A DNA stretch of 64,000 nt, taken from NCBI RefSeq assembly GCF_026914265.1, contig NC_069125.1, positions 5,352,117 to 5,416,116 of the forward strand. The letters run 5' to 3'. This document shows positions 8,101 to 40,600 of this stretch, in pieces (within the stretch, counting starts at the first letter, position 1; every line of letters starts with the position of its first letter). Origin of the DNA: Mya arenaria. Its lineage: Eukaryota > Mollusca > Bivalvia > Myida > Myidae. The position numbers were made by a program, and so were the translations under genes. The notes under the pieces were generated by a model. The model made no database searches and was not told the DNA's origin. It saw only the letters and a list, made by a program, of their open reading frames with translations.

Positions 8101-11100
8101 TCCCCAGTACTACCCTTTAAATGCTGAGAGCGAGGCATGGGAGCTTCTGGTACCATATTTTAACATCTTTCAGTTTGATGCTGCCGTGGTTTGAATCCAC
8201 CAACATTCCGCACCCAAAGCTCTACCACTGAGCTATCAGGGCGCTCAGCACTTTTATGTCACTTAGAACAGTTCCGCTTTCATCCCATTATTCATTATTA
8301 TGATTGGTTTAGACTTTTAATTACAAGGCTGTTTACGGTCAACATGTGGACCTTGGTATTAGTCATACATAATTATACACATAACAATGAAATAGTTTCA
8401 AATACATGTATTAAATTTTATAAACACTTTATTACAAAAAATAGAATATAACCTACATTTACAGCCAATGAAATTGCAGAAAGCCATACATAAAGTACTA
8501 GGCTTAATCATTAAGGATTTAAACATTCACAGGTGTTAAATGGCCACCAACTGCAACTCATCTTATTACATTCGCTGCGTTAGAATTTGAGTTGACAATG
8601 TGTCAGCCAATGAAGTTGTATTTAAAGTCAGTGAGCTGACCTGATTTAAAACCATACTGATTTAGGAGGGCTCATTCGCTACGCTCAATCCGCCCATTCT
8701 TAATCATAAAGATTTTAATACATGTCATCTAACATCATGTTAATTTAAGTGTAAGACAATGACATTAGAATTTTGGATATGAAGCCTTTCCACATGCTTC
8801 ATGGTCAGTCTATAAAAAAAGCACTGTTAAATGCATTTAAATAATGGCTATTTTATCAAGAATACTCACCTTTTTTTGCGTGATGTGTCGAGGCTGAGTT
8901 TGATTCTGACAATAAACTTGTTAAATTTCAAGATGTTATGAACGCATACTTTCTGTTAAGCCTGTCAAGGCTTGAGTCTGACAATACCTTCGCTGGTCAG
9001 CAAGTTTCCCCAACACAATGTTCCCCTTGAATGTGCAGTCATCATTTATCAACAAAAACAAGACTTGCCATTAATATTAATCAACACCCACCTTTTCTGA
9101 GTAGCCTGTCGGGGTTGAGTTTGAGCTTGACTCTGCCCCTGCTGGTCTGCCAATGTGGCCAGGACAAAGTTTCCCTCAAATGTGCTGTCACTATCTATTG
9201 TGAAAACAATTGGTCTGAAATAGATAGTCGGTTTTGTATGACAATAGGGCTTTTTAGAAAGCGGTTTTGGTGGTGGGTTGGTGATTTCTCAAACAAGTCC
9301 TATCAATATCTATATCATTTGTTTAAAATCATTGAACAAATAAAGCATTTTAAACTCATTTTAACAACAAACTAAATACATCGTAGAGTCAAACTCTGTA
9401 AAACACTGACAAACCTTCCAGCAGTTTCAAAGTTGATGGTCAGGGGTAATGTGGTCACTTCTGCAAACCCTAAAATGGCCTGGAAGTAAACAACACATCA
9501 TCATTTTTAATAATGGTTAGAGCAGCGAACTCATCCTGCATATTTCTTTATGAAAAAACGAGAAATAAATAGCAGGTTGAATGATTCCTTCTGAAAGCTT
9601 CAAATTACTCTACTAACTGATAGAAGAATCTGTCAACAAAAATGAAATATTTGTAAGTAAATTTTCTGTCTGAGCTTTAATATCAACGTCAGGCTTGTAA
9701 TGTTTGTTTACATCACAACAGCAGCTAAGTTTATATGGAAGTGCAAAAACATCCACAAATAATATAATGGTTTGTTTAAAAACCTCTGCTGTAGTTTGTA
9801 TGACTATTATATATCTTGCTAACTCAAAATATTACTAATATACAAGATGGAATTAAAAACAATACTTTCTGCTATAATCTTACATTGAATTCAGTAAGTT
9901 TCAGGTTTATAAAGAAATCCTGGAGTTAAAACCAAATAACTACATTATATTTAAGTTAATAAACATAAATATAACAATTTTGAAACAAGAGCACCGCATA
10001 TGAAAGATGATGCTCCTTTCCTCAAGAGGCAGTGGGACAAATTATTTTAGCCGAGTTGTGAGCCTTGATTCATGTATTATCATGTGTAATGTCATCTGCC
10101 AACTGCTCTAACAATCATGTGACCAGTGCCATGACAAGTTTGAGCACTTTACTACAAGTTGTTTAAACATTGTCGATCAGAAAAGGGTGTGATGCCTGCT
10201 TGGACAACAATGAGGCCGGACAACATGACCTCGTGAGTCTGCCTTTCTTCGCAGACACACACAAATACAATGATCCAATAACTAAAAGCCTTGAGTGCCC
10301 TACCCTAAGTTCCTTTAGGCAAAAGGTGACCTCAGTGTCAACCCCAACCTGACAGTTGTCAAACTCATCCGGCTCAAGACTCAGGTTGGTGTGCATCACC
10401 TTGTTTGGGTCTGAAAAAATGATAGAAATCAAAGATGAAAGTAAATTTATTTTACAAACAATTTCATCTGTTTAAAAAGGGATAAAACAAACAATACATG
10501 GCCTTTTTGGGTGGGTGGGGTATGTTGGTATGTCATTATAATATGGTGAGATTCTAACACAACCTTGAGTCTTGGACTACGCCCATTGGGTTATAAGAGA
10601 GCAAGCCAGGCTTAAAAAGACATGGCACTGCAGAAAGGAGACAGGGTGCTAACAGAGAAAAGGTCACATTGTATTGATTTTGGAAATTAATGAATTTGAC
10701 AGTAAATTGTTTAACTGAAGTAATTTTACAAGGTTTACAATGCAAAATATGTAAAGTTTGTATGTAATTATAATTATTTAAAACTCTAATCAAACCAAAA
10801 CAAGTATTTCAATCTCTTGCATAAATTCTATGAAGGCAGAAGGATACAACAGATAACATAAACATCCAAAACAGCAAAATAAGAACAAGCACCAAATGTC
10901 ACAAAATATGCCAGCCCTAATTTTAGTACACCAAGTTTTGTGATAAGTGATAAGTGGTTGTAAGTTTAGTCAAATTTAAAGAGCAGACACTGTAATTACA
11001 GTTTTTGTCAATTCAAGGGTCATTACTCTTGAGTGTCAGACCATACACATTTTTACTAAATTTGGTAATGATTAGAGAAAGTCTTTAAAGTCAATGATTG

Positions 11101-14100
11101 TACAAGACCCATTTGAGATAATTTATATAATTAATTGCCGATTACTTGAGTGACTACAGCGATGTGGCTGGTTATGGAACATGGTTGTTACAGTGTGCCA
11201 ATACACATTCTGACCAAATTTGATTGGACAAAGGCTTTTAAAGTAATTGAGCTGACAAGACCAATTTTAGGTAATTTTTATAATCAAAGGGTGATAACTC
11301 TCGATAATATACAACCATATGACTGGTCATCAAACTTGTCTTAAACATTATAACAATATAAATTCCGATCATATTTGATGATAATTGGACAAAGATTTCT
11401 ATTTTTATTGAGCAGATAACATACTGGACGCCGCCCACCCATCTGCCGCAGGTAAAACTATAATATGTCTATGTAGATTTTTTTAAAACAGGCGTATAAA
11501 AACTATAGCAAATGATATGCATGGTTGCTTTTTACATTATGGATAATTTCATCAACTGTCCTTATTTGATTACCAGTAGTTCAACGAGACGGAATAATCT
11601 GTCAACATATATTTTGTTTTTAAAACAGAAAAGCTAAAAAATTCTATATATTCAATGTTTTTGTCACCTGGTTCGTCATCCACATAGTTTTTGATGACGA
11701 TTTTCTCTGGGTTGACAATAAGAGTTATCTCCTCTTGGTTGTTCTGAAAGTTCATCACAGCATCGCACAGCAGTCTGAAAATGGAATAAAAACAAGTGTC
11801 TAGAAAAGTCAGGTTTCCTGTGAATATTTTTAAAGTTGTGATAACACCAATGTCATCAACGACACAAAGTCTCTAATTTTTGAAAAACATAAAACTAAAC
11901 TATAAAGCTAAAAGATTAAATATGAACTATGGTGTAATTATTAATTGATTAATTAATCCTGGTATTATTTTTAAATAGATTCATTAAAGCTGGGGTTTGA
12001 CACCAAGGCAATACCAATACCTCGACCATATTTCTTCGAAAAAAAAGTATCTTATACAGTGTAGTACACTGACTGTACAAGAATACTACTGTATGTACTT
12101 GGAATTAAATACATGTACCTACTTGGAAGACGCTGTTAAAGAGTTGGGGCTCATGTCCTTGGAAAAGACGGCCTGCAGGGTCTCGCACTCAATAAAGGCC
12201 AAGTTGTGAGTCTTCACAATACCTGGGCGGATTAAACATTAAATGTTCTTACAAAAATCACCTTCACGTACACGTATACTTAAATGTAAATAAAACTGAG
12301 TAAATTATAGCCATAACTAGCTATGGTAGAACAATGAAAATCCCCTGGTCTAATGTCAAAATCCCCTGGAATTCTGAACAAATATTTCAAAATCCCTTAG
12401 AGTGGTCTTCAGAAATATGACATGTATTCTTGCATCTTAGGGCTATAATTATAAATATCATCGTGAATTTAAACAAGAGGGCCATGATGGCCCTAAAATT
12501 GAGTAAATTATAGCCATAACTAGCTATGGTAGAACTATGAAAATCCCCTGGTCTAATGTCAAAATCCCCTGGAATTCTGAACAAATATTTCAAAATCCCT
12601 TAGAGTGGTCTTCAGAAATATGACATTTATGCTTGCATCTTAGGGCTATAATTATAAATATCATCGTGAATTTAAACAAGAGGGCCATGATGGCCCTAAA
12701 ACGCTCACCTAAGCAAAGGGCAACAACTCAGAGGAGATGTTTTTAAAGCAAAACAGAAAGTTGGCCAGATGGTTGTTGTTGTTGATCAATCGTGACCCCT
12801 TGTTGTATTTTTTGAAGAAGATTACCTAAGGAAGCTTCCTGTAAAGTTTCATTGAATTTGGACTGGTAGTTTTAGAGTAGATGTTTTTTAAAGCAAAACA
12901 GGAAGTTGGCCATTTTGTTGTTGTTGTTGTTGATCAATCGTGACCCCTTGTTGTATTTTTGTAGAGGGTCACCCAAAGAAACTTCCTGTAAAGTTTCATT
13001 GAATTTGGACTGGTAGTTTCAGAGGAGATATTTTTTTTAAAGCAAAACAGGAAGTCAGCCATTTTGTTGTCATTGTAGTTTCAGAGGAGATGTTTTTTAA
13101 AGCAAAACAGGAAGTTGGCCATTTTGTTGTTGTTGTTGTTGATCAATCGTGACCCCTTGTATTTTTGTAGAGGGTCACCCAAGGAAGCTTCCTGTAAAGT
13201 TTCATTGAATTTAGACTGGTAGTTTCAGAGGAGATGTTTTTTTAAAGGAATACAGGAAGTCGGCCATTTTGTTGTTGTTGCTGATCAATCGTGACCCCTT
13301 GTTGTATTTTTGTAGAGGGTCACCCAAGGAAGCTTCCTGTAAAGTTTCATTGTATGTGGACCGGTAGTTTCAGAGGAGATGTTTTTTAAAGCAAAACAGG
13401 AAGTTGGCCATGTCTTTGTTATTGCTGTTGTTGCTGTTGTTGCTGTTGTTGATCAATCGTGACCCCTTGTTGTATTTTTTGTAGAGGGTCACCCAAGGAA
13501 GCTTCCTGTAAAGTTTCATTGAATTTAGACTGGTAGTTTCAGAGGAGATGGTTTTTTAAAGGAAAACGGGAAGTTGGCCATTTCATTGTTGTTGTTGTTG
13601 ATCAATCGTGACCCCTTGTTGTTTTTTGTAGAGGGTCATCCAAGGAAGCTTCCTGTAAAGTTTGATTGAATTTGGAGAGGTAGTTTCAGAGGAGATGTTT
13701 TTTAAAGCAAAACAGGAAGTTGGCCATGTCTTTGTTATTGCTGTTGTTGCTGTTGTTGCTGTTGTTGATCAATCGTGACCCCTTGTTGTATTTTTTGTAG
13801 AGGGTCACCCAAGGAAGCTTCCTGTAAAGTTTCATTGAATTTAGACTGGTAGTTTCAGAGGAGATGGTTTTTTAAAGGAAAACGGGAAGTTGGCCATTTC
13901 ATTGTTGTTGTTGTTGATCAATCGTGACCCCTTGTTGTTTTTTGTAGAGGGTCATCCAAGGAAGCTTCCTGTAAAGTTTGATTGAATTTGGAGAGGTAGT
14001 TTCAGAGGAGATGTTTTTTTAAAGCAAAACAGGAAGTCAGCCATTTTGTTGTTGTTGCTGTTGTTGTTGTTGCTGATCAATCGTGACCCCTTGTATTTTT

Positions 14101-17100
14101 GTAGAGGGTCACCCAAGGAAGCTTCCTACAAACTTTCATTGAATTTGGACTGGTAGTTTCAGAGGAGATGTTTTTTAAAGCAAAACAGGAAGTTGGCCAT
14201 GTCTTTGTTATTGCTGTTGTTGCTGATCAATCGTGACCCCTTGTATTTTTGTAGAGGGTCACCCAAGGAAGCTACCTACAAACTTTCATTGAATTTGGAC
14301 TGGTAGTTTCAGAGGAGATGTTTTTTAAAGCAAAACAGGAAGTTGGCCATGTCTTTGTTATTGCTGATGTTGATCAATCGTGACCCCTTGTTGTATTTTT
14401 GTAGAGGGTCACCCAAGGAAGCTTCCTGTAAAGTCAGGGTTCTCAATAAGAACCGGCCGCCGGCCAAAATGACCGGTTCAAATGGCATTTGGGCCGGTTC
14501 AAAATCGCCTAGTAACAAAAATTAAAAGTTCCCAAATCGTTTACAATTTAAATTTTTAAAATCCGTCAACGAATAAAAAAGTTATTGCCTTTTAAATACG
14601 ACGACTTGATTAGCGTTCGCCCGGTCCCGCATATTTCTTTACGGCGCCGTTTAATAAACTTCACTAGTCCGTGTAGATAGACGATTGATAAAACGCTTGG
14701 AAGCAAGCGTCTCATTCTAGTAAAAATGAAGAAAAGAAAAATACACGATTTCTTTCACCCTGTGTCGAGTGAGTATAAGATAAAAATGAAATAAAACAGT
14801 TGCATTTATGAATTTCTTGTTCTGTTTATTGTTTCACGTTTGATTTCCACCGTTTATTTTGTGTTCTGTTTATTGTTTCACGTTCGATTTCCACCGTTTA
14901 TTTTGTGTTCTGTTTATTGTTTCACGTTCGATTTCCACCGTTTATTTTGTTTGAAGTTTTGATCGTTGTTTATTCCGTACAAGATGCATTATTACGAAGA
15001 TTTGATAAGGAGGTAAGTTTACTCTATTATCATTATCATTATTCTGTATGAAAAAATCGTAGCAATATTAAAGACTCACCAAATATAAAGTGGGTTGGGT
15101 AAGGTGAATTTTTAAATTTTTGCTTAAACTTCACAGTAAACCAGTCATCAAAAGGGCTGTGGCCAAGTGGTTAGAGAAACCAAGGCGGAAGTTGGGTGCT
15201 CCAACACCAGAAAGATTAAGATGTCCAGTGACGGTAGGTGTTCAGACTGACACATGCATGGCACTGGACACAGTCACACCTTGTAGGGAGGAAATTCGGG
15301 CAGTCCTCAAGGAGATACTTGTTGAGGGGGAGGGGGACTACTACTCGTCCAGTTCATCAGATGAGGACAGTGACATGTGTTAATAACAGGGTTAAGCGTA
15401 ATGAATACTGTTCTTATTAATTCAATGTGCCTTATGTATTTTCACAGTACAATTGCATTGTAGTTTTGTTAATACATTGTATATGGTGTTGAAAATACAA
15501 TTTTCAAATGGATATTTTGTTGTTGAAATTTGGTAAATAAATATAATTGCATTATGATATAGATCCTGATACAACTACTGCTCTGCAGTACTTGTATCTG
15601 CATATTTAGGGGATATTACTTATAAAATTGCACTTGAAAGGGGTGATTTAAAAGGCATTCAAATAACCCCAGAATGCAGGAAATGACGCGCTCACATAAT
15701 TTTTTTAAAATGGTAGTTTCAGAGGAGATGTTTTTTAAGCAATTGTTGACGGACAGACTGACTGACGCCGGACAACGACCAATCACAATAGCTCACCTTG
15801 AGCACTTCGTGCTCTGGTGAGCTAAAAAGAGAACCACAGGGAATGCCACTGTGTGTCAGTTGTAATTACTTTGAGTTAGGGCCCAGTGATAATAACAACA
15901 ATGCCCTAACTCAACTAAGTTTGTTCAAAACAAAACATACACACGCTGAAATTGTCTCGGCCATTTTTGCCTGAATTGAAATACTACAATGAATCAAGCT
16001 TGTTTCTAATAAAAAAATTATGACGTATTATAAATTAATATTCATCTCTTTATATTTCTTCAAAACAAACTATAAGAAGTCTCATATGTATCAATAAAAC
16101 TCTGATAGGGTGGAAGAGATGTGCTGCCAGTTCCCCAATGAGATGTCAATAAGCCAGCAGACATCTCTTCCGCCTTTAGTCAGACGACATTGGCCAAGTG
16201 GCAGGAACCATGCCCTTGAAATGCAGTTGTGATGTGACCAGAGTAATCTGGTGTCCCGTAACTATCCTGTGACGATGTAGATGAAATGTTATATTCTTTG
16301 TCGCTCATCCCATATTCCTTACTTTCCTGTCATCCCCTCAACCACCCATTTTACCCCTACACATTCAAACATCCGCACCTATTCTATGTGACAAGACCTT
16401 CTAGCATGTTCTCACCGTGTCTACAGTAGAGTTGGAACACGAGCCGCGATTCCTTCATATTCAGTTTGATCTTACATCTTTCCACCGTTTTCTCCATCGT
16501 GGATAGGGACCGGAATACTGTCAGGATGGACTGGAACGGGGAACATTTTTAGCTTGAACTTTTGTTCATATTTATAACACGATTGTACATTTTCAACAAC
16601 ATGGGTAAGAATTCTAATGGAACTGTCAAACACTGCATACAGACATCATGTAGTTCAAAAACACTGCATTAATATTGAAAAAAAACAACATACTCATGGC
16701 ATCAAGCACCATCAAGCTGCTGTCATTATATATAAATCTAAAAATCGTAAGAACTTCACCTATATATGTCTATATCTGGTGTAGTTTTAAATGGAAGTTT
16801 TTGTTGTTCTTAATCTTAATAGTACATACTACATGGTTTTAATGATACCAACAAAATCACACCAGTTATTAGTGAAATACAAATCACTTTTGTGGTAACT
16901 CATCTCAGAGTGAGATTCTAAAACTTAAAAAGAAATCAAGCACTTTATGAATAGTGATTGCAAAAAAGCAGTTTTTAAGATGAATTATTCACTTCAAGAC
17001 CATAAATGAATACATAATACATATATACCTACACTTTTAAAGAAATGTCTACCTTCATAGCTATTTTACACCTGAGGGTATCCTCACTATCATCTGAAGA

Positions 17101-24942: not shown

Positions 24943-27900
24943 TCAATCCAAAACATCGTCAAATGAGACATCATCTTCTATCATACAAACAGAAGTTTCA
25001 AGCGTTTCACCAAGTTCTGCAGCTATGTCTATGACAACAGTTTCTCGAGGAGTGACCGTCAAACTGAAGGGTTTAGGTGCCAAAACGTAACCCATCATTT
25101 CACCTTCCAGGTCGACCTTCCCCTGAAGGTCAAATCGAAGATAATACAGAAGATTCGTAGAAAACAAGAAGAGCAGAATATCACTTATTCCTTCCCCTGG
25201 ACAAGATCGCAGTCCGTCACCGAACGGCAAGTATTGGTCCGGTATTCGGAGATCACCATCCTCTAAAAATCTGAAAAAAGTTTGACATGCTTGTAGGGTA
25301 TAGATGGGTTGTCGTCTGAAACTGAAACTAGGAAAGCGTTACCGTTTTCGATCTTTTGTCAAATGAAAAGAATAAATGCCATATCCACTCAGCGACAAAG
25401 ATGGGGAAATGTAATCTATGAAAAGGTACAACGAAGAAACTTGTCATTCATTCATTTTAACCAACAGTAGGAAACAAGGCTGAAGTAAAACACCCAAAAT
25501 CAACAAACTTTAAATGGTATTGCCGCAATGGTTCGGTACTGGGTAATGAAACAGTACCCGAGTACCCACAAAAACCCAGCCCTAAAACCCCAAAACCCAC
25601 CTGGGTACCTGTCCATGCCCTAATTGCTCATCAACCGAGAAGATGTGGGTAAATATAATGTTTTAAATATGTATAGGTTAAAGATGCCATATGCTTATGT
25701 ATACAGTATGTTAAAGATTTAAATACAGAGTCCTTTTGTTGTGATTTTTAAACCAAAGTACAAAAATAAGAAAATGAGTGAATGATGTACATGAAGGGTT
25801 ATGAATCAGGGCAAACCTAATATTTGGCGTGTTATTATTTGTTGTTTAATTAAAGCTTTTTTTAAACCTCTGCAATGTAAATCAATCGTATATAAAAACT
25901 GTTCAACAAAGTTCCAAGGAACTTGAACTAGTTGTCTCCCATCGCAATATGTTTGATATAGGCATATGACCTTTGACCTCTAAGTGTGACATCATCTCAA
26001 TATGCTGAATATTTGTGGCTAGTTATTTCAAAATCCTGTAAGTGGTTCAAGAGAAATGTAGCAGACACAAAATTTAGTCTTATGACCTTTGACCTCTAAG
26101 TGTGACCTTGAACCAAGCCAGTTGTAGCATGCCCTCATCATCTCAATATGTGGGAAAATATTCCAAATCCTTCAAGCAGTTATTACACACTAAACTTAAG
26201 TTGAATTACCAACTATAATTTTCATGCTTTCAGTCCCTAAATGCATTGGATATTTTGCAGTTGGCACTTAAATATCCTGCCTGTATTTTAGGTTTTAGCA
26301 TGATGGAATAAGTTTCAGTGATATATTTGCAAGTACTTTAAAGGGTATATTGAGTGTGTTTTAAGCAGAATAAACATCAATCAATCAATCAATCAATGAA
26401 AATAATATCTGATTCCAAACCTATCTGGATCAAACTTCATGGGATGTTTCCAGTGTTTGGCATCATGGTGCAGACTCCAAACATTAAACAACATGGCCGT
26501 GTCCTTCGGAATTTTGTACCCTGAATAATAATTACAATAGGCTTTCATTTTGACAAACAAATTTTCTAAAATATAATTACTAAAATACAAATTTCTAAAA
26601 TTATGAAATGTTTCAGTAAAAGCAGTTTTATTGCTTGAGTCTGTTTTTCTGCATCGACAGAAGCTCACAGTCTATCCGTTTTGATACTCTCCATTCAAAG
26701 AATTCCATATGTCACGGAGACAGTGCTATATTTATGTTTTATTATATAAAGATAAAGTCAATGTTGCCATTTTAATAAGGATTTAGATGTCTCCATTACT
26801 ATTTTCTTTGAAAATTGAAATGTCAGATCTGGTAAACATTTTACCAGGTTTGAGTGTTTGCACAAATTTTGACCACAGTTTTAAGAACACAGCAATCATA
26901 AAACTACTCTACCCATAAATTGTGTATCCTCAGTAGCCATGTGTGGGTACATGAATGGCAGGACCGTTGCTAGCCGCTGTGTTTCCAGGATGACTGCACA
27001 TGTATATGGCAAGTGTGGCTGGTCGCTCATCCGTGGAGACCTCTCAATGCCCATAACTGATGTCAACTCCTGGTATATCTGTGTAAATAAAAAACAGAAG
27101 ATGCAAATACATGTATATGGCCTTTGTGACTGATCACTCAACCCTGGAGGTCTCTCAATGCCCATGGCCATTGTAAACTGCTCGTATGTATGGGTATAAA
27201 ATTATCATAAACGGACAAATGACTAGACATGTGTACAGTAAATATAGCAAGTTTAAATAAAAACAAATATATTTATGGCTATTCCATTTAAACATATAAC
27301 ACCCGAGGGGAAGGCACTTTTAAATTATGCCACCCCCCTACAGAAGCAAATTTACCCATGTGGGGTCCAAATTAGCGAAAAAAGACACCCACCTATATAC
27401 TATTTAAATAATTGCCTTCCCCCCCTGGGTTATATGTTTTACTGGAATAGCCCTTACCCAAACATTCATTTATCAGTATAATTTTACTCAAGCTTTTAAA
27501 AATATGGAAAAGATGTTATAATTTTTCTTTGGTTTTCATTATTTTTCTGTGCATCTTATTTTTTATCCTAGCATATTACCTACAGTGAAATTCGGTACAG
27601 GAATTACCTTATCTTGAACATCAGGGAAGTATGAAACGTAAAGTATAAGCCAGGCTAAGGTAGCAGAAATCGGTTGATTTCCAGACGAACACAACTCAAC
27701 AAATATTCCATCTAGGTCTTCTTGGGAAAGCACACCGCTATCTTCATTCAGTTCCAACATCACCAGGCTACAGTCCACTAAATCGCTGACTATGTTGGGG
27801 TTAAAACAATCCTTGTGCCTGAAATAAATGAAAAAGACTCATCAAAATGATTAAGGCAGTTCTTCTATGGTATGTGGAATAAACGATATATATCTCAATA

Positions 27901-30228
27901 TTGTTGGTAGCTGAGTCTTGAGTGACCATAGTTTATTTTAAGTAACCATAACATGGCAAAAATATACCGGTACATGTAAAATTTATTACTACACTTGTTC
28001 AATATTTACAAGTCAAAGTACATGCTAACTTACAATAAATATTTTAATAACCATAAAATGGCAAAATGATATAAATAACTTGTAATCTCATATAGGGTAA
28101 TTGCTCAGGAAGGAAATATTTTTAAATGTTTGCAGGGGCTGTATTTAATAACCATCTTAGATTCAACTTAAATTTAAGATTAGAATTTAAGTGTTTTGAT
28201 TGGCATGTATATTTAGCTGACCAATCGGCTGAATGGAATCACTGAGGCATGTCTAAGGATAAGGATAAGATCAATATTGAATACTGGCCCAGGGTAGCTC
28301 TGATACATGTATTTTATTACCAGAACTACGGTATCTTTGGGGATAAAAGCTAAAACCAATATATACAGGTGACCAATGAGATGACAGAGTGTAATTACCT
28401 ATTAACAATATCTCTCTGGTACGCCATTTGTATTTCTGATCTCTCTCTGATTTGAAAGAAGTTGTATGAAACTGAACTTTGAAATAGAGAAATACTTTTC
28501 AAATCTTCCCATTTACTCACAAGGAGCTGAGAATTAATTTGAAATGTCTTCCAAATTTCATGAAAATTTGCATCATCATTTGAGTATAATTTTCCATTCA
28601 CCACAAACATTATGAGTCTTAGGAAAATTGGTTCTAATATTGCCTGAATGTGGGGCACATTTCTTTGGCTCAGTAGAAATGAAGCCAATTTTTCTGTCTC
28701 TGCTTTCATTGTCTCTTCAATGTGGGGTTTATAGCACAAACTGTTCAGGCTCTTCAAGGCAAAGTCTCTCTTTATCTTGAAGTCAAGACTTGGATTTGAT
28801 TGAAGCAATTCTGAAATTCCAAATTAGAATTATTTCTTATGATAATAAAACATGAAATAATGGCACTAAGTTAAATTTGGTTTTAAGTTTTGTAGATTAT
28901 TCACAGGCCAAGTAAGATTTTGTTTTCTGTGTTGTAATTTACTGGCACCAAGTCAATTTTTTTTTCCATTTTGTAAATTATTGGCACCAAGTAAAATTTG
29001 GTAATCCATTTTGTAAATTATTGGCACCAAGTAAAATTTGGTAATCCATTTTGTAAATTATTGGCACCAAGTAATATTTGTTTTCCATTTTATAAATTAC
29101 ATGTACTGGCACCAAGTTAAATATTGTTTTTCATTTTCCGCTCTGGTACATCTTTTAACAAGGAAGCTGATCATTGAACACAGTCATGCTGTAACAGTAA
29201 ATGAAACTTTATTTGGTGAGGTCCTTTTTCGCAATTTTTGGTTTCAATAGGAATAAAATTTACAATGCCATTATTTACTCATCAGAAAGCAAAAGTAAAT
29301 TAAATATATTGCTAGGGTACACCGTATGATGAAATAGCAAAAAAAGAGAAAATTGTCAAAAACTGACATAAACTTGGTATCGATGTGTATAATGCATTGA
29401 AACTAACTAACTGAAGTACCACATAGTTTACAATTAATTTTTTTTTCGCAGTTTTTTCGTATTTTTCCATTTAAAAAGATTACTAGGTATGTATACCTAG
29501 TAGAATTCATTCTAATGTGCGAATGGCTAGTCGATGTTATCATGTTAGGTATATAGCTTAAATATTCCAAATGTTAAGTGTAAACCTTCGTAGCACAGTG
29601 GATACAACACCGGACTGCAATTTTGGTGACACTGGTTCGAACCCAGTCTCCAACTTGATTTGTTATTTACATTTTGGTATTTTTTTTACAATTATGAGTA
29701 AAAAAAAATAATTAAATAATTGTCCTGAGATTTGTTACAGAAAAACCTTTTTAAGGTGCCAATCTGGTGTATAGACCCTTTAATTTTAGGACAGGTTTAA
29801 TTAAAAAAAACAAAAAACAGCAATTTAAATTAAAATCAATCTACGGTATCACACATTTCTACCAATACTGTACATGTACCTTTGTTAAAGACTCCAGAGA
29901 GTAAGCTACCAGGTCTTCCACTAAGTGTGAAAGCTTTCTTGACCAGACCTTCATTTAGGCCCTCAAATGAGCTCACAACTACTGCTCTCTGCCGACCAAG
30001 TTTTACACTAAATATTTCGCCGTACACATCTCTAAGCTGGGTCAGTCTTATGTGGGGTCGAGCATGAAGAAGTTTCTGATTCTTGGTGAATGGAATGCTC
30101 CAAGGACCCTCTGGGAAGCTAGATACACTTCTTTTCCAGAGGTATACGCAAGAAAGAATGAAAACCAGCAACAGAAGAAGAATGTTTTCCGTTTGTAGGT
30201 TGCTGTGTTGGATAACAGCCATGGTCAT
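24943..30228 (-). CDS. Cytochrome P450, clan-2-like, with atypical I-helix
   Basis: This is a predicted heme-thiolate protein of the ER membrane. Six coding exons on the minus strand have consistent phases and GT/AG borders: 30228-29880, 28810-28399, 27818-27608, 27078-26913, 26520-26421, 25270-24943, giving 521 aa. The chosen ATG (30228) follows an apparent UTR acceptor at about 30235. Another in-frame ATG lies two codons on. The N-terminus has a membrane anchor (ENILLLLLVFILSCVYLW) and FPEGPW at the hinge. K-helix ExxR is ETQR (356-359). The PERF-type motif is FDPDRF. The heme loop is FGDGLRSCPGEG with ligand Cys436. In the I-helix the usual (A/G)GxD/ET reads SGNQP, so the acid and Thr are replaced by Gln302 and Pro303. 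That could mean altered oxygen activation, a rearrangement-type P450, or loss of activity. Length is normal. The family within clan 2 and the substrate are unknown. Confidence 0.92.
27109..27187 (-). pseudogene. Partial duplicate of P450 exon 4
   Basis: Just upstream of exon 4 (minus strand), a segment encodes MGIERPPGLSDQSQRPYTC, closely matching MGIERSPRMSDQPHLPYTC in the true exon. It covers only the 5' half of the exon, lacks the ExxR part and has no strong donor. The reading frame runs open through it into exon 4. It looks like a short tandem duplication, not an alternative exon. Confidence 0.75.
27275..27455. mobile_element. Short MITE in P450 intron 3
   Basis: Imperfect inverted ends of about 40 bp start with GGCTATTCCA, include AACATATAAC and reach GGGGAAGGCA near the inner border. 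The total is about 180 bp. No target duplication was identified. Confidence 0.6.
28900..29130. repeat. 40-bp tandem repeat in P450 intron 1
   Basis: Five to six diverged units each contain TTGGCACCAAGT and 'ccattttgtaaatta'. The two central units are nearly identical. Confidence 0.8.
29584..29652 (+). repeat. tRNA-derived SINE head
   Basis: The sequence TAGCACAGTGGATACAAC (A box) is followed by a 7-nt loop with GCA at anticodon position, and a perfect T-arm CTGGTTCGAACCCAG containing a consensus B box. The acceptor ends do not pair and an AT-rich tail follows. It therefore reads as the head of a SINE and not a tRNA-Cys gene. It lies antisense in P450 intron 1. Confidence 0.5.
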
Positions 30229-31140
30229 TATTTTCTGCAAATAAATAAATGTTGTTGTTTTTTGTTGTTTAAAGTTGAGAATGATATGTTAAATTCAGCA
30301 GAAAGAACACCACTTTCCGTTTGATTGTTATTTGTATTCAGAATTGGAAACTGGGTTTTTCAATACAGCTATCCTACATAATCTTGGAATCATAAGGATT
30401 TATTTTCAACTGATAACATGATCTGGTGAAATTCAGCTATAATGATTAATTTGTTCAAGTCGTTTCATTTACTACAGTCTTACAAATAAAATATAATTAT
30501 CATATCTTTTTTGTGACCTTTTAAAGATTATTTTCAGGTGCTTGCTAAAAAAAAGAAGGACAAATCTATGTCGAGGAAATGATAAATGTATTTAAAGTGA
30601 AAACACATATGTGTAAAATGTCTATACTTATTATAGGACTATGTTAATAAATGCATGAGACATGATAGAGATGTATTTATGCACTAGTCAATTGTAACCA
30701 TGCCCCTCACCACAGGTCTGGGGAATAGCAGGGACTTTGACTTTCGGTCCAGCCAATCCTGGGTAAAATCACTGCCATGCGGGGACAAACTGCTGGTAAA
30801 ATCCCTGCCAAATGCACTGTAATGTTCATGGATTCATGTAGTCCGGAGCCCGGAAAATAATAATTTCTGTTTTAGTAAATTTTATAGAGAATTTGATTTT
30901 CGCTTTATCGCTATGACTTCTTTATGATGATTTCGTGTATTTAATACTAATGTTATGGTTTTAGTATTAAATGTCTAAATTTAGCTAGTAAATGATTAAT
31001 TAATACGAATAAGTTGTATTCTTAATAGTTTTCTACGTTTTCGTATGTTTGATAAACTTGACACCCCTACTCTGTAACGTTAGTTATATATAATGGTTTC
31101 ATCCTTAGAGTTTGTTAAGAATGGACCATTCCATTTTGGT

Positions 31141-32566: not shown

Positions 32567-32605
32567 AATACGTAAACAAGGGGGTGCGGGGTGATACAGG
32601 AATCC

Positions 32606-33710
32606 AGTGGATTTCACGTGAAATCCACTCAAAACGTGAAATCCACTCAGAACTCAGTAATTTTAATTAATATTTTTTTTTTTCGTAAACATATTAGAAA
32701 GTGCCTCATGAAGGGTTTATATTCAAATTTTATTGAAATTGGTCAAAAGATAAAGAAGTTAGAGCAATTTTTTTAATTTTTTCCAAAAATAGATCGGAAA
32801 TCGAGGTGAAATCCAGATTCCGATAAGTGAAATCCACTCATAACTCATTAATTTTAATAAATAATTTTCTGTTTTTGTATATTTATTAGAAAGTGCATCA
32901 TAAAGGGTTTATATTTCAAATTTTATTGAAATTGGTCAAAAAATGAAGAAGTAAGAGCAATTTTTCGAAAATAGATCGGAAATCGAGGTGAAATCCAGTT
33001 TTCGAGAAGTGAAATCCACTCTTAACTCAGTTTTATTAATTAGTAATTTTTATTTTTTGTAAACATTTTGGAAAGTGCCTAATGAAGGGTTTACATTTCA
33101 AATTTTATTGAAATATATCAAGAAATGAAGAAGTTAGAGCAATTTTTCGGAAATCGAAGTGAAATCCACATTTTGACAAGTGAAATCCACTTTTTCAGAC
33201 GTGAAATCCACTCATAACTCATTTACTTTTAACAAATTATTTTTTTTGTTAAACAAATAATTGAAAGGGCTTCATAATGGGTTTATATTTCAAATTTTAT
33301 CCAAATTGATCCCAAAATAAGAAAGTTGTAGACCTATTTTGAAAAAAAGGTCGGAAATCGAAGTGAAATCCACTTTTTGAGACGTGAAATCCACTCATAA
33401 CTCATTTATTTTTAACAAATTAATTTTTCTGTAGAACAAATAATTGAAAGGGCTTCATAATGGGTTTATATTTCAAATTTTATCCAAATTGATCCAAAAA
33501 TAAGAAAGTTGTAGACCTATTTTGAAAAAAGATCGGAAATCGAAGTGAAATCCACATTTTGGCAAGTGAAATCCACTTTTTGAGACGTGAAATCCACTCA
33601 TAACTCATTTATTTTTAACAAATTATTTTTTTTGTTGAACAAATAATTGAAAAGGCTACATAATGGGTTTACATTTCAAATTTTATTCAAATTGATCCAA
33701 AAATAAGAAA
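32606..33710 (+). repeat. Tandem array (about 190-bp units) in left foldback arm
   Basis: Units begin near GTGAAATCCACTCATAACTC and include 'atttcaaattttat' and 'atcggaaatcgaggtgaaat' type blocks. Roughly six are visible, the outer ones more GA-rich and the inner ones sharing 'gacctattttgaaaaa'. The right arm (36340-37440) carries the same array inverted. Confidence 0.85.
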
Positions 33711-33959
33711 GTTGAAGTTATATTGTGAGGGCGTTCTGTTGTGTATGCATAATTGTTTAATTTTTTTCATGATAAACACAATATCCATACACATCCAGGC
33801 CATACCACGTGGAGGAGCCCTCAATCATGGCCCTTTTTTACTTTCGAATTTTGAAAATATTAAAAATTTAATAAATAATCCGAAAATTGTTTTGTTATTT
33901 GTTTATGCCAGACATTTATTTATGGTTATTTATACATGTACATTGGTTGATATACATAT

Positions 33960-34980
33960 ACTAGAAAAAGTACTCCACGGTACATGCTCTACTCGGAACT
34001 GGGTAGATACCCCCTTAACACCATAGTTAAAACCAGAATGATTAGTTACTGGAGTAAACTCGTTTCATCCCATGACTCGAAAATAAGTTTTTTGATATAT
34101 AAAGGCATTTTACATAGTAATAATTCAGCCTGGACCAGTTACATCAAGTCAATACTTGATTCAACGGGTTATTCATACGTTTGGCATAACCAAACAAGAG
34201 TACATGTAAAATATATCAGTAAACTTGTGAAATCTAACCTTGTAGACCAATTTCAGCAAAACTGTTTTGAACAATTTAATCTTTCGTCTAAGGGTAAAAT
34301 GTATTCTCTGTTTAAGTCTGATATTAAATTTGAGGAGTACCTTAATATTTTACCCAAATCTCTACGTTTTACATTCTTGCATTTCCGCACTAGTAATCAT
34401 AAATTCCCTATCGAAGTCGGTAGATGGAGACAGAATGCTGTACCACATGTCAATAGAAAGTGTACGTTTTGTAATCTAAACGATATCGGTGACGAACTGC
34501 ACTATTTACTTACATGTCCATTTTTTAATCCTACCAGAAAACAATACATAAGTAGTCGTTTTTACTCAAGACCTAGTGTCTTACACTTTAGTGAAGTTTT
34601 AAATTGTATGAACCCGGATACCTTAAGGAAAACAGCAATTTTTGTTAAAATCTTAGTTAATCACTTTAAACGAATCTGATCATGTACTTTATAGTTTTTC
34701 ATTTGATATCTCATAACTATATCGATTATATTGTATCCTAATTCAAATAAATGAATTTGTTTTGTTATAAAAAAATAAATAGTAATAATATTTAAACTAA
34801 CCACATTCCCCTTACTTACTAATTATATTTGTTTTGTATAATGATAAACTCTAAACCTGTTGTGTAGCCGCCATTAACCCACATATTTATACCTGTGTTA
34901 ACATATATACATTGCGTTTTCACATGCTTTTACTTAAATGTAAACTGTGATATAATAAAAGAATATTGAGTTGAGTTGAG
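33960..34980 (+). mobile_element. LINE 3' fragment (RT C-terminal part) spanning arm and loop
   Basis: The open frame from 33984 to 34679 encodes the end of a non-LTR reverse transcriptase protein. It has LYSELGRYPL, a W-rich linker, FRTSNHKFPIEVGRW and a Cys/His knuckle CTFCN...GDELHYLLTC typical of the C-terminal zinc-binding region of LINEs. A TTGAG-repeat tail ends it at about 34980. The first 78 codons lie in the left arm and recur inverted in the right arm (36065-35829) with one amino-acid change (His/Pro). The RT catalytic domain itself is absent. Confidence 0.8.
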
Positions 34981-35215
34981 AGCGTAATCATAAAAAAAAA
35001 GAAACAAACAAATACAACAGAGCAAAGTTACACCAAGTGAAATCATATGTTTAACTTGATTTACAATAATGAGAGATAATGAAAAGGTATGTTCACAACA
35101 GTGAAGAAAAATAATTACACAAAATAAACAATAGCAAAATATGAAAAAATATACACAGGTAAACTTTGAACATAGCCCCATGTGAACAATTTAAAATGGA
35201 ATAATTCGTGAGGCT

Positions 35216-35476
35216 GTGCACTGCCACCCGTGCTGGGCTTCAATAGTGATTCTCGGCGTGTGCACACCAGAAAGGGGAAACTTCAAAGACAAATTTCTAA
35301 GCAAAAAAAGTTTCAACGCACATAGAAAACGCATCAATAATCTTGTTCGAAAAAGTGTACAATGCATTGAAATGAAGGACATAAGATTTCATAAGGACTA
35401 TCACAGTGACATGGTGCACTACAACAACAAAGGACACATTAAATACTTTGACGCCATCGGGAAACATATTACGTAA
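35216..35476 (+). pseudogene. SGNH/GDSL esterase-like C-terminal fragment in foldback loop
   Basis: The open frame reads VILGVCTPERGNFKD, then HRKRINNLVRKSV and finally SDMVHYNNKGHIKYFDAI. The DxVH...G..KY pattern matches the catalytic Asp/His block of SGNH-hydrolase domains, which some retroelements and hosts encode. The Gly/Ser and Asn blocks are missing upstream, so this is a fragment. Origin (captured host or element gene) is unresolved. Confidence 0.5.
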
Positions 35477-37602
35477 TTTCACAGATTAATACGAGCTAAA
35501 AGCAATTATTGTGATGTTAGTTATAAATATGCTTATTGTTGTAGTAATAGTAGTAGTAGTTCGCAAATGTGCTTATAAAAACACGTAGTTATTAATTTAT
35601 TGTTGTTATATAGTTGTTGTTATTTATGTTATTTATGTTTTCAAATGTGCTTCATTCATTCATTTAAAGATGAAGTAATATCTATTCATGATTGTTAATG
35701 TACTTTTAAACTTATTATGAAATATATTTTTGAAATGAATAAATATTGCATTAACTCATATAAAAAGTCTCCGTTTTCAATAATAAGCATATTATAAAAT
35801 ATGCTAAGTATATATTACACTTACCGATTCAGATATATTTTACAGGTACTCTTGTTTGGTTATGCCAAACGTATGAATAACCCGTTGAATCAAGTATTGA
35901 CTTGATGTAACTGGTCCAGGCTGAATTATTACTATGTAAAATGCCTTTATATATCAAAAAACTTATTTTCGAGTCATGGGATGAAACGAGTTTACTCCAG
36001 TAACTAATCATTCTGGTTTTAACTATGGTGTTAAGGGGGTATCTACCCAGTTCCGAGTAGAGCATGTACCGTGGAGTACTTTTTCTAGTATATGTATATC
36101 AACCAATGTACATGTATAAATAACCATAAATAAATGTCTGGCATAAACAAATAACAAAACAATTTTCGGATTATTTATTAAATTTTTAATATTTTCAAAA
36201 TTCGAAAGTAAAAAAGGGCCATGATTGAGGGCGCCTCCACGTGGTATGGCCTGGATGTGTATGGATATTGTGTTTATCATGAAAAAATTAAACAATTATG
36301 CATACACAACAGAACGCCCTCACAATATAACTTCAACTTTCTTATTTTTGGATCAATTTGAATAAAATTTGAAATGTAAACCCATTATGTAGCCTTTTCA
36401 ATTATTTGTTCAACAAAAAAAATAATTTGTTAAAAATAAATGAGTTATGAGTGGATTTCACGTCTCAAAAAGTGGATTTCACTTGTCAAAATGTGGATTT
36501 CACTTCGATTTCCGATCTTTTTTCAAAATAGGTCTACAACTTTCTTATTTTTGGATCAATTTGGATAAAATTTGAAATATAAACCCATTATGAAGCCCTT
36601 TCAATTATTTGTTCTACAGAAAAATTAATTTGTTAAAAATGAATGAGTTATGAGTTGATTTCACGTCTCAAAAAGTGGATTTCACTTCGATTTCCGACCT
36701 TTTTTTCAAAATAGGTCTACAACTTTCTTATTTTGGGATCAATTTGGATAAAATTTGAAATATAAACCCATTATGAAGACCTTTCAATTATTTGTTTAAC
36801 AAAAAAAAAAATTGTTAAAAGTAAATGAGTTATGAGTGGATTTCACGTCTGAAAAAGTGGATTTCACTTGTCAAAATGTGGATTTCACTTCGATTTCCGA
36901 AAAATTGCTCTAACTTCTTCATTTCTTGATATATTTCAATAAAATTTGAAATGTAAACCCTTCATTAGGCACTTTCCAAAATGTATACAAAAAATAAAAA
37001 TTACTAATTAATAAAACTGAGTTAAGAGTGGATTTCACTTCTCGAAAACTGGATTTCACCTCGATTTCCGATCTATTTTCGAAAAATTGCTCTTACTTCT
37101 TCATTTTTTGACCAATTTCAATAAAATTTGAAATATAAACCCCCTTTATGATGCACTTTCTAATAAATATACAAAAACAGAAAATTATTTATTAAAATTA
37201 ATGAGTTATGAGTGGATTTCACTTATCGGAATCTGGATTTCACCTCGATTTCCGATCTATTTTTGGAAAAAATTAAAAAATTGCTCTAACTTCTTTATCT
37301 TTTGACCAATTTCAATAAAATTTGAAATATAAACCCTTCATGAGGCACTTTCTAATATGTTTACGAAAAAAAAAAAATATTAATTAAAATTACTGAGTTC
37401 TGAGTGGATTTCACGTTTTGAGTGGATTTCACGTGAAATCCACTGGATTCCTGTATCACCCCGCACCGTAAACAAGGAATCGAGGTTTTGACATTTTCCA
37501 GAACTCCAATATTTTAACCGTTTTAGCTGAATAATGACTTGAAATTATATCATACCTCAGCATAATAGTTTCAGACAAACGTAGATTATTATATCTTTCA
37601 AA

Positions 37603-40600
37603 ATGAGTGCCACAGCTGGAGCAGAAGGGGGCGGGGCAAGCAGTGACGCTAATGAATCTGAAAATTCTGCGTATGAGTGCAATATCTGCCTTGATACAGC
37701 CAGAGATGCAGTTGTCAGCATGTGCGGACATTTATTTTGGTATGAATACAACATATGTATAGCCATATTGTTATGTCATTGATCATATAATGCCCCTTGA
37801 TCACAGATTTTGAGAATACTCCTTTTTAAGTTCTCACACTCACAGTAGGTTTAATATTGACAGGGGCACATTAATTATAAGGGTGGTTCACTAATTCATT
37901 TGTTATTTTTTCATCAATAAACAATGGCACTTGGTTTTTATAACCCATTTTGTTACTTTGAACTCCTGATAAGAGACCAGGGCCACAGGAACTTGTCACA
38001 GTAACTTTTTCTATGTATCCAGTACATTTGACTCACATTCCATGTCTCTGAGTGATTTTTCGCTTAAGAGACCAACACAATAAATATATTGTCTTATGTG
38101 GGGAATTGATTTTGGCCATCAGCAGCTGAACAGTCAACCGAAGAATTACAATCGCATGTTACTTTAACTTTAAAACATTACATTTTTCATGAAGTTAGCT
38201 TACCACAAAAATGCAGTTGTATTTGCCCATGCATTTCAGAAAGTGATTTTTGCTCTTGTTGACAATGTTTGATATTTGATCACATGTATGACATTACAGG
38301 TCATAATTCAGAATCGTGTCAAAATGTAGGCTGTTTTATGATGCAATAAACAGAGGCAATATATCAATGATTCAATGTTTATCATTAACAAGTGAAGACA
38401 ATATTTGATTGGTGTTTACACACATGTCTACAATCTCAAAGCTGGTAAGAAACTTATGCAACTTACAATGTACATAAAGACAAAATATAATAACCTCTGT
38501 AAAGGATTTCTGCTAGGGAAAATTTTTTACCCTCGGAGGAAATCTTGAACATGGGCTTTATCCCTCGGAGCGAGCGAGGAAAGTCGATGAGTGTACTGTA
38601 TAATATAAACCGTGGGTGAACAAGGCCCATTTTATGGTAATAAGGCGATATTAAATGGTGTTTTTCAAGTGAGTTGGTTTCTTTTTAGAATTCTTTTCAA
38701 CATCATCATTGACACTGGAAACAGTAAGCCTGTTTAGCTGCAGAAAAAATAAATTATTATTTAATTTGATTTAAAATTGATTTTCAGTTGGCCGTGCCTT
38801 CACACATGGTTAGAAACAAGACCTAATCGGAAGACATGTCCAGTATGCAAGGCCGGAATCTCCAAAGAGCAGGTTGTGCCTATATATGGACGTGGGAGCG
38901 ATGACAGAAAAGATCCAAGGTAAAGGCTTTCCAAATCATTTTTAGCTCGACTATTTGAAGAATATGGAGAGCTATACTACTCACCCAAGCGTCGGCGTCA
39001 CACCTTGGTTAAGGTTTTTCGTGCAAGCACACATAGGTTAATATCTCAGCAACTACTTGAGGTATTGCATTGAGACTTCATACAGTGGTACTCAACCATC
39101 CAACCTACTTAATTAACCAAGTTAAATAACTCTAGTTTGCATTAAATGCAAATAATAGGCCTTAATTATTCGACTTAGAAATTCTGGTTAAGGTTTTGCG
39201 TGCAAGCACACATAGGTTAATATCTCAGCAACTACTTGAGGTATTGCATTGAGAATTGATACAATGGTACTCATACATCCAACCTACTTAATTAACCAAG
39301 TTAGATAACTATACTTTGCATTTAATGCAAATAATAGGCCTTTATTATTTAACTTAGAAATTCTGGTTAAAGGTTTGCGTGCAAGCACATATAGGTTGAT
39401 ATCTCAGCAACTATTTGAGGTATTGCATTGAGACTTGATACAATGGTACTCAACCATCTAATCTACTTAATTAACCAAGTTAGATAACTCTTGTTTGCAT
39501 TTAATGCAAATAATTGCCCTTTATTAATCAACTTAGAAATTCTGGTTAAGGTTTTGTGTGCAAGCACACATTATTTTAATATCCAAGCAACTACTTGAGG
39601 TATTGCATTGAGACTCGATACAATGGTACTCAACCATCAAACCTACTTAATTAACCAAGTTTGATAACTCTAGTTTGCATTTAATGCAAATAATTGCCCC
39701 TTATTATTCGACTTAGAAATTCTGGTTAAGGTTTTGCGTGTAAGCACTTTTAAGACAATTACTCAGCGAATACATCATGTATTGCATAAATCTTTACACA
39801 CAGGCTCCCAACCATTTAACCTTCTTCTTTAATCAAGTAAGATAAGTCTATCTTTCATATTATATAATTTTTGCCCGTTTCTTATGCAACTTAGTAATTC
39901 TGGTTAAGGTCTTGCATGTTTGCACACATAGGATAATATCTCAGCGACTACTTGATGTATTGCATTGAGACTTTATACAATGGTATTCAACCATCCAACG
40001 TAATTGAATAACCAAGATAGCTAACTGTATTTTGCAAATAATGGCCCTTTATTATTGGACTTAAAAATTCTGGTTGAAATTTTCCATGTAACCACATTTA
40101 TGTTAATATCTCAGCACATCATGTATTGCATTTAATCTAATCTAACAGTGATCCATGCATGTTTCGCCAAAACTTTTCAATCCTTACACTGAAAAGCGGC
40201 GGAATAGTCGAGCGCGCTGTCTCTGTGACAGCTCTTGTTATGTTCACCATCAACTTTTGGTATGAAAACCTATTAAGCTATCCTGAAAAAACAAACGAGC
40301 CCCTGAAAAATAACCCAACAAAATGTGTAATATTCTATGTAGAAAATAGACACCAGAGCCTCCTTAGTCCATTCTGGACCATATTTTGCAAAGTGAGTTC
40401 AAATAAAACATGTATTTTAGTCTGTTTATCAAGGGAATGACACAGAATGCATCATTTGAGATCAAATGCCAATAATACTAGTATAAAAATGAAGTTACAC
40501 GTATGTTGTTTACACTTGTGTTATTTAGTCAGAATCAAAGTAATTTAAAAATATTCGGCAAGATTGTTGATCATAAAATGTGTTGTTTTTTATTGAGAAG

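Follow-up and report, generated by a model that had tools for sequence, protein, structure and literature searches.

A non-autonomous foldback Mutator-like element in Mya arenaria whose long arms were probably built by inverted copying of one end

A foldback transposable element and its family were analyzed starting from a copy near a RING-domain gene in a 64,000-nucleotide stretch of the Mya arenaria genome (contig NC_069125.1, positions 5,352,117 to 5,416,116 of the forward strand), referred to here as the window. The copy, classified below as a complete, non-autonomous foldback Mutator-like element (MULE), occupied window positions 32582..37468 (4,887 bp; no strand assigned) and lay between two copies of the target-site duplication TAAACAAGG, at 32573..32581 (+) on the left and 37469..37477 (+) on the right. 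One extra base, a G on the + strand at each end (32582 and 37468), separated TAAACAAGG from GGTGCGGGG; read inward, this outermost base is a G on the left, which marks the left end as a G-end, and a C on the right, which makes that end a C-end. Because both borders of the window copy share the 11-mer CGTAAACAAGG, the register of the duplication could be fixed solely from other copies, namely from 12 of the 14 long copies described below. The earlier note on this DNA had placed GTAAACAAG(G) outside both ends; the duplication, put there at 9-10 bp, is 9 bp long, and that string lay one base out of register and mixed the extra G with the duplication. Only the perfect duplication and the copy-specific structure point to a recent insertion.

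The two long inverted arms, which had been put at about 1.64 kb, were found at 1,635 and 1,636 bp. Besides the terminus GGTGCGGGGTGATACAG, the left arm (32583..34217, +) comprised tandem units of about 180 bp that carry GTGAAATCCAC motifs, a core segment of about 220 bp, and the initial 263 bp of an insert resembling a long interspersed nuclear element (LINE). The right arm (35832..37467, −) held an inverted partial copy of that insert (35832 to about 36094). Element positions 2-1636 paired with 4886-3251 at 99.1%; the arm-to-arm alignment contained 8 substitutions and 7 gap columns in 1,639 columns, and, starting just inside the outermost base, the two arms were identical for 101 bp. These long, internally repetitive inverted arms are what defines a foldback element. 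The GTGAAATCCAC motif occurred 25 times within the element and 0 times elsewhere in the window, and the flanks outside the element were not mirrored but carried the target duplication. An Rfam scan of the window gave 0 matches, and two open frames of the element, 231 and 86 aa long, gave nothing above the Pfam cut-off.

The insert, of about 1,028 bp (33955..34982, +), interrupted the core. It is called LINE-like because of its 5′ truncation, its TTGAG tail, and a zf-RVT match below the cut-off (E 0.063) in a 231-aa open frame (33984..34679, +). This frame is the end of a longer, multicopy one: among the best 150 of 11,492 candidates scored, relatives 98-99% identical to it were found in copies with frames of up to 1,215 aa. 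The remaining, nonduplicated core (34983..35831, +) was in part related to the 3′ part of the core of a transposase-bearing copy, L023, and ended at the junction of the inverted duplication (35831..35832; no strand assigned), with about 1 bp of microhomology.

The first 229 bases of the element, used as a genome query with the best 40 of 562 candidates scored, gave 136 matches, many of them onto repeat units of one arm. In a first sample, 20 loci around the best terminus matches were read together with the window copy. Both ends were recognized at once in 13 of the 20 loci and in the window copy, giving 14 long copies, 12 of which had an exact, in-register 9-bp duplication that differed between copies; the exceptions were L009, which shared 8 bp, and L014, which shared 10 bp. 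L012 and L018 are not independent, since they have the same duplication and flank. Closer reading located both ends in L023 and in the same-flank pair L013/L019, which is about 242 bp long and retains just about 14 bp of the right end, and a single end was found in L011, L015, L022, and L028. In L022, the far side of the single-ended element (586-1597) repeated about 20 bp of the left flank with no inverted terminus there, as if it had been rejoined after a break.

A second sample comprised 29 pairs of a G-end with a C-end (one with a T-end) taken from the pattern lists, of which 21 had a duplication matching at 9 of 9 positions and 2 at 8 of 9. When flanks of different copies were paired as a mismatched control, 9/9 matches arose in 2 of 812 pairings, both because sites L046/47 and L048/49 have identical flanks; given 21/29 true pairs against 2/812 mismatched ones, duplication by chance is excluded. 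Shared flanks within this sample joined L046 with L048 and L068, inverted, with L070. Among the ends listed, paired ends lay 726 bp to 13.5 kb apart. The terminus thus recurs genome-wide with different 9-bp duplications, as the earlier note had expected of an inserted element. That note would have given up the superfamily assignment had other copies shown another duplication length; 9 bp dominated, with a few duplications of 8 or 10 bp and some pairs with none. MULEs make duplications of 8-11 bp, usually 9 bp, which agrees with the exact 9-bp duplications in both samples.

The outer 220 bp proved alike across the family rather than element by element, because identity of the outer arms within elements (0.983) barely exceeded that between elements (0.973-0.979). 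Likewise, in a nearest-neighbor test of the terminal arms, in which the left end of L023 was set 2 bp too far out, the partner arm was nearest or tied at 4 of 32 ends. The 32 duplications oriented by end type gave a weak A/T-rich middle as target consensus and nothing more. No published description of the family was found by title or abstract in searches that were not exhaustive and did not extend to Repbase, where an entry is possible.

A genome search for the MULE transposase domain, with 150 of 153 candidates scored, gave 54 matches, at least four of which were placed by coordinates in copies with this terminus. The domain (PF10551) was above the cut-off in these four, L023, L037, L100, and L101, and the window copy itself lacked it. 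L023 spans about 6.5 kb (2953-9463) and has ACCATCCAT as its duplication. Its MULE domain (E 9e-8) lies in a frame of 714 aa that ended at an in-frame stop and was followed by 220 aa more; the frame began inside an OTU-like domain and continued into the MULE domain. L100 (duplication GGTCACTCC) had a frame of 529 aa, its transposase gene carrying a deletion, and was 99.7% identical to L023 over 1,492 bp. L101 had MULE and Transposase_mut (PF00872) domains above the cut-off in one frame, and L037 had a partial MULE domain. An upstream 450-aa frame of L101 (3034-4383, −), separate from its MULE frame, encoded an OTU-like cysteine protease domain (E 2e-7, above the cut-off) with the letters DGNC, followed by an acidic linker; the only solved-structure match for this frame was OTUD7B, and it was weak (E 0.006). 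The upstream frame overlapped that of L023 with 96% identity across 140 residues. Pieced together from the overlapping frames of these two broken copies, the sequences suggest a single protein that combines OTU, acidic, and MULE parts.

In the scanned, overlapping pieces of the broken copies L023 and L101, which cover the protein except for its very start, no match was found to the PHD finger of Rehavkus elements; the scanned transposase pieces from broken copies likewise gave no match to the FLYWCH zinc finger of Phantom/Tm1, and instead of the P-type transposase and THAP domains of Galileo, just MULE-type and OTU domains were above the cut-off in the scanned pieces. When part of the L023 transposase was used as a genome query (125 matches scored), 100% matches were confined to L023 and L100, L101 matched at 97% over part of the query, and the others were more distant. 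One related transposase (C10:1583310-1583948; 52% identity) lay in an open frame of 1,010 aa without stops. The L023 core, compared with 20 other copies or ends, had sequence in common with 14 and none in common with L011, L012, L013, L018, L019, and L028; several of the 14 retained both core flanks without the middle, like deletion derivatives. The window copy is called non-autonomous because the MULE domain sits in its relatives and several copies resemble core-deleted forms. Its assignment to a non-autonomous foldback MULE, which the first reading had proposed from the window alone, is upheld by the differing 9-bp duplications and by transposase-domain copies with the same ends.

The origin of the long arms was approached through the LINE-like insert. 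The pattern of its insertion junction, with one mismatch allowed, was found in two places, the window copy and L010 (control, 0). The pattern of the uninterrupted core site was found in 53 places, 39 of them exact; since the backwards-read control also gave 3, a few of these matches may be due to chance. Window positions 33701-35832 aligned with L010 in a single line at 97.8%, and at 35832 the window switched to an inverted copy of its own left side. This junction was found once, and its halves were found separately in many places (40 of 179 candidates scored). Up to the insert, the two window arms shared 99.4% identity with each other, against 97.2% with L010 on its C-end side and 91% on its G-end side; in the block past the arm, each window side matched L010 at 0.99 on the C-end side and at 0.54 on the G-end side. 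From the junction, the comparison with L010, and the beyond-arm block, we infer that an inverted copy of one end took the place of the other and extended 263 bp into the LINE-like insert. Judged from these alignments, the long arms come from a copy-specific inverted duplication that moved part of the insert to the other end, and L010 shows the unduplicated state.

The window copy is therefore best read as a DNA transposon of the cut-and-paste type that belongs to the MULE superfamily, with foldback arms and without a transposase gene of its own, one end of which was rebuilt as a copy of the other; we put the probability of this reading at about 90%. A transposase from intact relatives would act in trans and recognize the ends and arms, perhaps by binding the repeated GTGAAATCCAC, and a 9-bp staggered cut would insert the element, with a preference for CpG-rich, promoter-like DNA. 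The LINE-like insertion into the core would have come first. Repair or replication templated on the opposite arm would then have continued beyond the arm through part of the core and into the insert, and rejoining after this copying would have left the near-perfect arms of 1.64 kb; break repair is a plausible route.

Several findings weigh against this reading. Six of the 29 sampled pairs lacked a 9/9 or 8/9 duplication in register (offset, shorter, or none), and 85 of 177 listed ends (54 C-ends and 16 and 15 of the two G-end forms) were unpaired. No intact transposase frame was present among the copies read, L037, L100, and L101 having deletions and L023 a stop. No empty allele of the locus was found in the assembly, where a search matched this locus alone, in two halves. 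In the arms themselves, the window copy was about equally like both sides of L010, and L010 is a close relative rather than the literal parent, since its core is inverted relative to the ends and that of the window copy is not. As to the route, template switching during replication would yield the same product as break repair.

Among the alternatives, the arms could have arisen by recombination between two different copies, the element being a chimera of like halves. Exchange and conversion between copies have been proposed for chimeras of Galileo (PMC3573991), and, the insert junction being confined to the window copy and L010, a very close sister that has since been lost is possible. The window arms, however, resemble each other more than either resembles L010 (99.4% versus 97.2%), so that the second half would come from the same element or a very close sister, and the ends are still one C-end and one G-end; a chimera of different copies is considered unlikely. 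An assembly artefact, in which an inverted chimeric read or a misjoin created a false palindrome, is very improbable. Long near-perfect palindromes are a known class of artefact, and the junction at 35832 was found once in the assembly, but the unmirrored flanks with their target duplication, the differences between the arms, and the existence of further foldback copies with the same ends all speak against it, and the recurrence of the terminus with different 9-bp duplications makes it unlikely in itself. P elements and hAT elements make duplications of 7-8 bp, and Helitrons make none. A foldback element that looks like a MULE but belongs elsewhere (to P/Galileo, to hAT, or to the Helitrons, in the last case with satellite-like repeats) is the least probable explanation and is largely refuted by the 9-bp duplications, the long inverted ends, and the MULE-domain transposase in copies with the same ends, even though the arms of Galileo are similarly long, contain internal repeats, and have been extended in a like manner (PMC3573991), and oyster Helentrons carry tandem repeats (PMC7492417).

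The two ends of a copy differed in their outermost base. Read inward, the outermost base was C at 206 ends, G at 94, and A or T at 4; backwards-pattern controls gave 0 matches for each of the C-, G-, and A/T-end searches. The bases just inside it varied among G-ends, GGTGCGGGG occurring beside a second form, GGTACAGGG, which followed a G in 49 of 49 cases (search pattern SGGTACAGGG, C or G allowed). Pairing by exact patterns within 16 kb covered the 177 listed ends, up to about C8:39.2 Mb (100 of the 206 C-ends), and yielded 46 pairs, 38 of a C-end with the first G form and 8 with the second, with no C-C and no G-G pair among those recovered by pattern. These are not 46 independent tests, because the pairs share ancestry. 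The asymmetric sequence outside the inverted repeat that characterizes Phantom/Tm1 is represented here by this single base in all 46 recovered pairs. Diverged or truncated partners are likely behind the unpaired ends. Of four unpaired C-ends read, L040 had a second-form G-end with an exact duplication, and L038, L039, and L041 had no partner end within 5 kb. In transposase copies, the G-end lay on the 3′ side of the transposase in four of four, and the C-end on the 5′ side in all three with both ends identified.

The core, scored against the ends in 16 copies, was oriented as in L023 in 10 (including L023), inverted in five of the 15 scorable copies (L009, L010, L017, L021, and L026), and absent from one (L012). 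Crossing-over between the arms would flip the core in this way, and the five copies need not represent five events. It is possible, though doubtful, that end identity rests on the one outermost base pair, with the C-end on the 5′ side and the G-end on the 3′ side of an OTU-fused transposase, and that copying between arms overwrote the inner bases. If one base persists in spite of arm copying, an element would have to carry both types of end in order to transpose, and the core would be free to flip. An origin of the shared outermost base in a circle junction was also considered and set aside; that origin too would place one and the same base at either side, but two fixed ends are indicated by the second type of G-end.

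The insertion sites are CpG-rich and promoter-like. CpG observed/expected ratios were calculated for 43 insertion sites, with up to 300 bp of flank on each side, and compared with 155 background tiles from 11 loci, 92 of them from the window and the tiles not independent of one another; the sites exclude same-flank duplicates (L018, L013, L048, and L070), the duplication-less pair L076/L077, and single-ended loci. The ratio was 1.04 at the sites and 0.64 in the tiles (0.69 in the 63 nonwindow tiles), and it exceeded 0.75 at 39 of 43 sites and in 55 of 155 tiles. A distant flank was available for 12 of 16 loci, and a paired comparison within these gave 1.10 near the insertion and 0.64 far from it (p = 0.003), with the near value below the far one in two loci (L021 and L019). 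G+C content did not differ between near and far sequence, and known promoter motifs at the sites were scattered and unconvincing, the CpG ratio being more informative. Such sites agree with the preference of MULEs for gene neighborhoods (PMC6446971).

At the window locus, the neighboring gene outside the element is a RING gene, which we take from its sequence to be of the RNF185/RNF5 type. Its first coding part lies at 37603..37734 (+), where the RING match is below the cut-off for the exon alone, as each half of the RING is singly. The proximity of the element to the start codon, described in the earlier note, was corroborated; the distance, given there as 136 bp, is 135 bp from the border, with the ATG at 37603. 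The insertion might alter RNF185 expression or be polymorphic, as that note suggested. Cytochrome P450 exons at 24946-30288 (−) lie on the opposite strand from the RING gene, with the element between both genes. The window also contains a tandem array of about 179-bp units (6.3 copies) at 39006-40116, downstream of the first two RING exons, and, at 12291-14427, TTG-rich stretches together with complex tandem arrays whose periods range over about 145-350 bp.

Five pairs of insertions had the same duplication and flank, two of them inverted, and lay 0.8-2.1 Mb apart on one contig: C2:9052455/9889457, C2:68758080/70267646, C4:38718787/39834021, C6:12085576/14218443, and C8:36077530/37645454. These are segmental duplications or alternative haplotypes retained in the assembly.

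Foldback elements are thought to arise through stepwise lengthening of their inverted ends. One such step can be read directly here, from the uninterrupted core at dozens of places, through the LINE-like insertion in two copies, to its inverted copy in one. The family furthermore provides a clean set for asking how the ends of a near-palindromic transposon are told apart. Published reads from the clam and its transmissible cancer could reveal whether the family moves; DNA transposons are overrepresented among the repeats expanded in that cancer (8/45 versus 171/4,471; PMC10663159).

The kind of element is already known from FB, Tm1, and Galileo. Drosophila FB/NOF elements have a foldback structure with tandem repeats in their arms, a likeness that is drawn here from general descriptions and not from sequence. 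Tetris likewise combines a foldback structure and arm tandem repeats with duplications of 8-10 bp and differs in having no known transposase in its description (PMC4079207). The cnidarian MULE MuDR-6_HM carries the Ovarian Tumour Gene, namesake of the OTU protease domain, but has no inverted ends, whereas the arms here measure hundreds of base pairs to 1.6 kb (PMC6446971). Rehavkus shares the 9-bp duplications and minisatellite sequence; it differs in its PHD finger, unmatched in our scanned pieces, in its minisatellite before the 3′ inverted end, compared with tandem units in both arms here, and in its occurrence in arthropods and annelids (PMC6446971). Tm1, a Mutator/foldback group of root-knot nematodes, resembles the family in its duplications of 8-10 and mostly 9 bp, its composite arms with tandem repeats, its small derivatives like miniature inverted-repeat transposable elements, its MULE transposase in one class, and its short, end-specific sequence outside the inverted repeat (PMC3169594). 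It has 7-bp end motifs, arm units of 13-15 bp, and a Phantom-type transposase with FLYWCH, in contrast to the one-base asymmetry, the unit of about 180 bp, and the OTU domain found here, FLYWCH being unmatched in the scanned pieces of broken copies (PMC3169594). Galileo, a P-superfamily element of Drosophila, has long arms, with internal tandem repeats of about 210 bp in one subfamily, and arms extended by inverted copying of internal sequence, for which break repair and conversion have been proposed (PMC3573991). Its transposase is of the P superfamily rather than the MULE type, and, compared with Galileo as described there, the clam family has a LINE-like insert that marks the order of events and a relative that lacks the inverted duplication (PMC3573991).

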